DNA from: an uncultured Micrococcales bacterium
Lineage (GTDB): Bacteria > Actinomycetota > Actinomycetes > Actinomycetales > Microbacteriaceae
DNA length: 64,000 nucleotides
Direction of reading: 5' to 3'
Assembly: GCA_903909605.1 (NCBI GenBank)
Contig: CAIVWH010000010.1
Span: forward strand, 62,001 to 126,000
Shown: positions 55,428-55,570 of the stretch, in pieces
Numbering within the stretch: position 1 is the stretch's first letter
Layout: each line of letters opens with the position of its first letter
Program-made: the position numbers and the translations under genes
Notes under the pieces: generated by a model
What the model was told of the DNA's origin: nothing
What the model saw: the letters and a program-made list of their open reading frames with translations, nothing else
Database searches by the model: none

Positions 55428-55534
55428 GCTCCTAGTTGGGCTTGGTGGTTTGCCCCGGAATAGCGAACTCTCCGCGACGAGGAGGCCGGGTTTTAGGCCT
55501 CGTCGCGGCCACTAAGAAGGAGCCCAAGGAACAC
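55428..55534 (-). promoter_or_regulatory. leuA leader: putative leucine attenuator
   Basis: The ~110-nt leader contains the leader peptide (55493-55534), an 11-bp GC-rich stem CCGCGACGAGG / CCTCGTCGCGG (55498-55508 with 55472-55482) whose loop contains the peptide's stop codon, and the leuA ribosome site AGGAGC (55428-55433). The leucine-codon segment GCTCCT (55518-55523) is exactly complementary to AGGAGC. No T-run follows the hairpin. Two mechanisms are therefore possible: hairpin-based termination, or sequestration of the ribosome site, relieved when ribosomes stall on leucine codons. The mechanism is inference; the elements are seen directly. Confidence 0.72.
55493..55534 (-). CDS. leuL: leuA leader peptide
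   Basis: The 13-residue ORF reads MFLGLLLSGRDEA, starting GTG at 55534 and ending TAA at 55493. Four of 13 residues are leucine, three of them consecutive (CTC CTT CTT). The start codon lies six bases after a -10 hexamer TAACCT, so the mRNA would be leaderless and the peptide translated as soon as it is transcribed. Leader-peptide attenuation of leuA is known in Actinobacteria; this matches that pattern. Confidence 0.75.
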   Translation of the reverse strand: MFLGLLLSGRDEA

Positions 55535-55540
55535 CCTTTT

Positions 55541-55570
55541 AGGTTAGCCGAGCGGTTATCACGCTGGCAA
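55541..55570 (-). promoter_or_regulatory. Promoter of the leuL-leuA transcript
   Basis: A -35 TTGCCA (55565-55570) and -10 TAACCT (55541-55546) are separated by 18 bp. This is one of the best two-element promoters in the window; its start site falls at or next to the GTG of the leader peptide. It lies immediately after the era stop codon. Confidence 0.7.

Follow-up and report, generated by a model that had tools for sequence, protein, structure and literature searches.

A LEU-type, predicted leaderless leader-peptide element upstream of leuA in an uncultured Micrococcales bacterium, and related elements upstream of leuC and leuB

The element reported here most closely resembles the LEU element, named by Seliverstov et al. 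in 2005 (PMC1262725), which combines a short open reading frame (ORF) with a run of leucine codons, a base stem between these codons and the leuA Shine-Dalgarno (SD) sequence, and a pseudoknot. Because mutations in the leuA leader of Streptomyces coelicolor were out of line with classical attenuation, its authors judged that mechanism unlikely and suggested a protein instead (PMC1262725). The text of that paper does not contain the words leaderless, leuB, leuC, leuD or ilvE. In 2005, mutants and structure gave conflicting indications of how the LEU element works.

Mycobacteria reportedly carry leaderless poly-cysteine attenuators, described by Canestrari in 2020. Like the present element they have a short leaderless ORF with many codons for the amino acid under regulation, and they are assigned to translation attenuation in PMC13236596; they differ in serving cysteine genes. 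The ilvB leader attenuators of Corynebacterium, Mycobacterium and Streptomyces also have branched-chain amino acid codons in the leader peptide (PMC1262725, PMC13236596), but they have candidate terminators followed by U-runs (PMC1262725), which the present element does not.

LeuL1 of Streptomyces lividans, MRFGLLLLSCRGEGL, is a 15-codon leader before leuA that was reported from RNA-seq to be leaderless, with a measured start site and without a typical terminator (PMC8079986). The leader studied here has 13 codons and a GTG start, and its transcription start is a prediction. It lies in a stretch of 64,000 nucleotides, referred to below as the window.

Architecture and folding of the leuA leader

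The features of the locus are collected in Table 1. The preliminary description of this DNA had listed a 13-codon ORF whose GTG lies six bases past the −10 hexamer and an 11-bp GC-rich hairpin around the leader stop codon. Both are present as stated, the hairpin being a perfect helix of 11 bp with a 15-nt loop that contains the stop codon.

Table 1. Coordinates of the leuA leader, its predicted functional segments and the neighboring genes in the window
Feature	Position	Strand	Remarks
−35-like hexamer TTGCCA	55565..55570	−	One base from the era stop codon
−10 hexamer TAACCT, fits TAnnnT	55541..55546	−	6 bases upstream of the leader GTG
Leader peptide ORF GTG...TAA, MFLGLLLSGRDEA, 13 codons	55493..55534	−	Leaderless by prediction; GTG at 55534-55532, stop codon TAA at 55495-55493
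Predicted sensor Leu codons CTC CTT CTT	55514..55522	−	Extra CTT at 55528-55526
Hairpin 5′ arm CCGCGACGAGG	55498..55508	−	Overlaps codons RDEA
Hairpin 3′ arm CCTCGTCGCGG	55472..55482	−	
Candidate anti-SD segment A: GUGUUCCU with AGGAGCAC, UGGGCU with AGCCCA	55521..55534	−	Spans the leader start codon; MFE and centroid folds; genus co-variation
Candidate anti-SD segment B: GCUCCU within Leu codons	55518..55523	−	Complementarity; genus co-variation of the Leu run
Base stem 3′ side AGCCCA-ACU-AGGAGCAC	55426..55442	−	Contains the leuA SD AGGAG (55433-55429)
leuA, 2-isopropylmalate synthase, 575 aa	53695..55422	−	ATG begins at 55422; NCBIfam NF002991 1e-267; TIGR00970 above cut-off
era	55572-56459	−	Upstream neighbor; element lies between era and leuA

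The 112-nt leader folded with −50.6 kcal/mol (z −3.9), a stability that none of 200 shuffled sequences equaled. The preliminary description, which proposed folding the leader RNA as a check, had noted perfect complementarity between GCTCCT in the leucine codons (55523-55518) and AGGAGC at the leuA ribosome site (55433-55428). The complementarity of these two segments is indeed perfect. In both the minimum free energy (MFE) and the centroid folds, however, the SD pairs most stably not with GCUCCU but with the beginning of the peptide ORF, GUGUUCCU (55534-55527, the start codon and first codons of the leader), which pairs with AGGAGCAC and is continued by UGGGCU with AGCCCA. These folds suggest that the anti-SD of the window is mainly the start-codon side.

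Conservation of the promoter, peptide and hairpin, and identity of the element

In searches of the window's genus and family, 55 of the 60 genus genomes and 240 of the 249 family genomes yielded leuA. A set of 137 leuA upstream regions was assembled from these searches: 57 loci were direct results, and a further 80 were selected from the same tables. A script that required a short, Leu-rich ORF and, 5 to 8 bases upstream of its ATG or GTG, TAnnnT recovered the design of the window in 134 of the 137 regions. The spacing between TAnnnT and the start codon is 6 in 115 and 7 in 19 of these leaders; the other distances between 0 and 60 had the motif on average in 0.46 of the 134. The leaders start with GTG (99) or ATG (35) and leucine makes up on average 28% of their residues. 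Most of the peptides have R-D/G-E/G near the C-terminus, followed by one or a few residues, but some, among them RSES and RRAGASY, end differently. One region missed by the script (L052) does have a leader, with a spacing of 9. Two genus members (L128 and L129) have lost the element naturally: the leader is gone, and between the stop codon of era and the start of leuA there are eight bases.

The promoter TTGCCA-18-TAACCT of the preliminary description fared less uniformly. Both hexamers and the 18-base spacer are present, and the predicted −10 hexamer fits the actinobacterial TAnnnT; however, a scan of positions 55000-56000 with the E. coli consensus found no sigma-70-like promoter, and the −35 is poorly conserved (4 of 6 matches in 36 of 134 leaders). 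The predicted leaderless start agrees with the near-fixed −10 spacing, with the absence of an SD-like 5-mer upstream of the leader start in all 134 leaders (a plain SD-like 5-mer precedes the leuA start in 87 of them) and with the leaderless transcript reported for LeuL1 (PMC8079986). Spacing and missing SD match what is expected of a leaderless transcript, which would begin at or next to the GTG. The tight spacing is a trait of the family rather than of the element everywhere, since seven loci that encode the LeuL1 peptide have their nearest TAnnnT at a distance of 9 or 10 bases, compared with 6 in the window; outside Microbacteriaceae the spacing is looser, at 6 to 10, or no TAnnnT was found.

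The hairpin was aligned in 65 of 130 leaders, the four of the 134 that lack the 3′-arm pattern (L013, L015, L124 and L125) being excluded here as well as from the T-rich-tail count and the model choice. In a 10-pair helix, 98.8% of cells are paired and 3 of the 10 pairs have changes on both sides, figures that ignore the relatedness of the sequences. Some compensated changes, such as GAC/GTC to AAC/GTT, also replace an amino acid, D becoming N or G, which argues that the RNA stem is retained for itself. A comparison of relatives for covarying stem pairs and for the leucine codons had been recommended at the outset, with loss of codons or stem in close relatives as the adverse outcome; pairs changed on both sides were found, and codons and stem are both kept in the genus and the family. 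Two of five whole-structure measures did not exceed shuffles (118 and 211 of 500 reached them), and a control in which the 3′ partners were shifted by −3 columns gave an equal covariation score (0.116) and 29 versus 20 doubly changed cells, but paired only 63.4% of cells. The scan of all column pairs was noisy and served solely for choosing columns; an inner helix of 4 bp was discarded, being paired in only 70.4% of cells.

In all 56 loci with a full leuA gene the Leu run closes with CTT, whereas CTT accounts for 25% of leuA's own Leu codons in the genus and 10% in other genera. The sequence CUUAG is nearly invariant (116 of 130 leaders), and a search for its pairing partner found none. An outer helix UUAGC/GCUGA around the hairpin, considered as an explanation of CUUAG, was rejected: 41.7% of its cells are paired, and its own pairing was reached by 1,742 and 647 of 5,000 permutations.

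A covariance model built from the Microbacteriaceae leaders matched 224 of 246 class genomes and 146 of 198 order genomes at E values up to 0.01. At E values up to 0.001 it matched 17 of 198 phylum genomes, two of them outside the class (L230 and L241, family f65; E values of 4.0e-7 and 2.7e-4), possibly through transfer or because of taxonomy. The seven loci that carry exactly MRFGLLLLSCRGEGL are model matches from one genus, which we infer to be Streptomyces. With Rfam 15, neither the window element nor 11 loci with homologous elements gave a match at the gathering score; the best result in the 11 loci was ALIL in L057 (24.5 bits against a threshold of 50), and the matches below threshold in the window were at chance level. 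Routine annotation would therefore miss the element.

Like the LEU element of PMC1262725, the element of the window has a short Leu-run ORF directly preceding leuA in an actinomycete, a design shared by 134 of the 137 regions compared. Its Leu codons can form a base stem with the leuA SD (GCUCCU/AGGAGC), and there is no obvious intrinsic terminator at the hairpin; the hairpin with T-run of a classical attenuator was not found. It differs in that the stronger SD partner in the window is the start-codon side. Given this LEU/LeuL1 arrangement and the class-wide model matches, the window element is a homologous member of the already described LEU element. As such a member it is ordinary, and the assignment is well supported.

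Pairing with the leuA SD and proposed regulation

Co-variation between leader and SD was assessed by permutations, which ignore relatedness. Across 50 sequences of the genus, the Leu run fits its own SD better than the SDs of other members (0 of 5,000 permutations), and the start-codon side does so as well (3 of 5,000); a hairpin-arm control gave 4,059 of 5,000. The stronger SD partner is the Leu run in 23 and the start-codon side in 25 of the genus sequences. In 84 sequences from other genera a signal, weaker than in the genus, remains for the Leu run alone (102 of 5,000; the start-codon side gave 3,262 of 5,000). An earlier test of the whole leader front on all 134 leaders gave 0 of 5,000, with 117 of 5,000 for its control segment. 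Examples of matched leader and SD segments are GGUCUCCU/AGGAGACC, AGCUCCUG/CAGGAGCU and GUGUUCU/AGAACAC.

The accessibility of the leuA SD was modeled for three states: a ribosome, with a footprint of 30 nt, stalled on the Leu codons; a ribosome at the stop codon; and free RNA. The mean modeled cost of opening the SD in the 134 leaders was 2.7 kcal/mol with the ribosome stalled, 6.0 kcal/mol with it terminating and 5.6 kcal/mol in free RNA. The terminating state was more costly than the stalled one in 121 leaders; the order was reversed in 8, and 5 were ties. Shuffling the leader front lowered the mean difference from 3.3 to 2.1, the real difference being larger than the shuffled one in 93 of 134 leaders. 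For the window, the corresponding costs were 3.8, 8.1 and 8.7 kcal/mol. This modeled dependence on ribosome position indicates that the geometry suits translational attenuation. Together with the genus co-variation, it lends in silico support to the earlier proposal that stalling frees, and passage sequesters, the leuA SD.

We consider it likely that the window element is a leaderless leader-peptide element of the LEU type that regulates leuA by translational attenuation. Transcription would start at or next to the GTG, as the spacing and the S. lividans relative suggest, so that a ribosome could enter at the 5′ end and translate MFLGLLLSGRDEA. With charged Leu-tRNA in short supply, this ribosome would stall on the Leu codons and cover the front of the peptide ORF; the downstream hairpin could then form and the leuA SD would be left open. 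When leucine is plentiful, the ribosome would reach the stop codon within the hairpin and free the front of the ORF, which could pair with the leuA SD and close both the SD and the leader's own start codon, with a predicted effect on LeuA synthesis. Among published observations, a ribosome-protected upstream ORF reported before leuA in Mycobacterium abscessus (PMC4974804) counts for such a mechanism, whereas the S. coelicolor leader mutations (PMC1262725) count against it.

Three other explanations were weighed. Under transcription attenuation, RNA synthesis would end ahead of leuA, either at the hairpin or through the action of Rho on a leader left untranslated, except when a ribosome is held up at the Leu codons. 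The helix is GC-rich, stable and almost always paired, as such a mechanism would have it, and Actinobacteria have terminators with weak U-tracts. Moreover, transcription attenuation is reported to operate at ilvB1 of M. tuberculosis (PMC13236596). We nevertheless regard it as unlikely at this locus. The lack of a T-run at the hairpin, from which the preliminary description had argued for a translational or I-shaped-terminator mechanism, was borne out in the window. A T-rich tail was found in only 28 of 130 homologues, and a terminator scan of positions 55000-56000 was empty at the hairpin, its sole site lying over the end of era (55594-55577). In addition, termination would not require the co-variation of SD and leader seen in the genus, and LeuL1 was reported without a typical terminator (PMC8079986).

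Less probable still is the proposal of 2005 that the site binds a regulatory protein and that the peptide is incidental. Its authors relied on a phylogenetic-profile argument and on the S. coelicolor mutants (PMC1262725), and the sequence conservation of the hairpin and of CUUAG is compatible with it. However, the reading frame, the start-codon spacing and the Leu codons are all kept, and before leuB the sensor codons become Val/Ile/Leu while the hairpin is retained (see below). We give the least credence to the short ORF being a mere translational on-ramp, whose leaderless start delivers ribosomes to leuA without leucine sensing. Leaderless transcription is widespread in Streptomyces, accounting for 17% of the primary start sites of S. 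lividans (PMC8079986), but the leucine content of the leaders, the fixed CTT at the end of the run and the recoding before leuB speak against this scarcely credible alternative.

Copies of the element before leuC, leuB and other genes

Copies of the element were also found before other genes. At least 44 Microbacteriaceae genomes have one 16 to 248 bases upstream of leuC, a count obtained by setting 150 listed matches from 106 of 120 genomes against 63 of about 120 listed leuC entries; among the matches listed, all 44 genomes with two have one before leuC. Ten examples in which leuC was identified by NCBIfam (L187-L189, L191, L192, L194 and L196-L199) are all Leu-rich, with TAnnnT at 6 or 7 bases. 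A search of the window's own genome for a second copy, at E values up to 1, returned only the leuA element and a reverse-strand match inside it. Likewise, no leaderless Leu-rich ORF was found before leuC in the 12 loci of the window's genus with a leuC start (in L211 within 43 upstream bases only; L214 and L225 gave no start).

In other families, 24 genomes were chosen for having two model matches, and all but one of them (G602) were examined. The second copy precedes leuB in 18 of them and, with L200, in 19 genomes from five families other than Microbacteriaceae (L200, L204, L248, L254, L260, L268-L270, L272-L280, L282 and L283). The gene was identified by tblastn, and by NCBIfam for three places. 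ilvE is found downstream in 14 of the 19 (NCBIfam for three), the other five stretches ending too early. Three of the remaining second copies precede leuA-like genes (L281, L285 and L286), and two have no gene identified (L257 and L284).

The leaders before leuB are recoded. In peptides such as MTRQVVILICRGEFR and MRSVFVLIDCRGEA, the Leu run is replaced by Val/Ile/Leu; Ile and Val fill 40 of 76 residues at the four sensor positions, with at least one in each of the 19 leaders. Elsewhere they account for 2 of 108 such residues before leuA in other families, 2 of 40 before leuC and 1.3% in the 134 Microbacteriaceae leuA leaders; given related genomes and residues that depend on one another, the test overstates the certainty of this contrast, but its direction is clear. 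That the scaffold stays constant while the sensed codons follow the product favors codon sensing and disfavors a purely protein-binding element.

Taken together, these copies lead us to favor, with somewhat more reserve than for leuA alone, a view in which the LEU element serves the class Actinomycetes as a leaderless translational attenuator that is programmable through its codons. A single RNA scaffold (a short −10-to-start spacing, a peptide end that is usually R-x-E or R-x-G, and the hairpin) would precede leuA and, in many Microbacteriaceae, leuC as well; in several other families it would precede leuB, with ilvE lying downstream. The few sensor codons would be rewritten to suit the product, to Leu before leuA and leuC and to Val/Ile/Leu before leuB, and in the window's genus the anti-SD would slide between Leu codons and start codon, so that leader start and leuA SD could close each other. 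A literature search that was weak on both genes returned no report of leuC or leuB copies. The copies suggest a leucine and branched-chain regulon under one small RNA device. The broad conservation, the leaderless spacing and above all the recoded leuB copies make the codon-sensing model directly testable; the leuB and leuC copies are most worth following.

Other genes adjoin the element at some loci. In L193, L205 and L206, second, diverged leuA-like genes also have it upstream. A short ORF beginning MTEE and containing ALQE follows the recoded element in L254 (at about 1816, between the element and leuB), L257 (at about 1780) and L284 (at about 456), positions being given in the orientation of the element.
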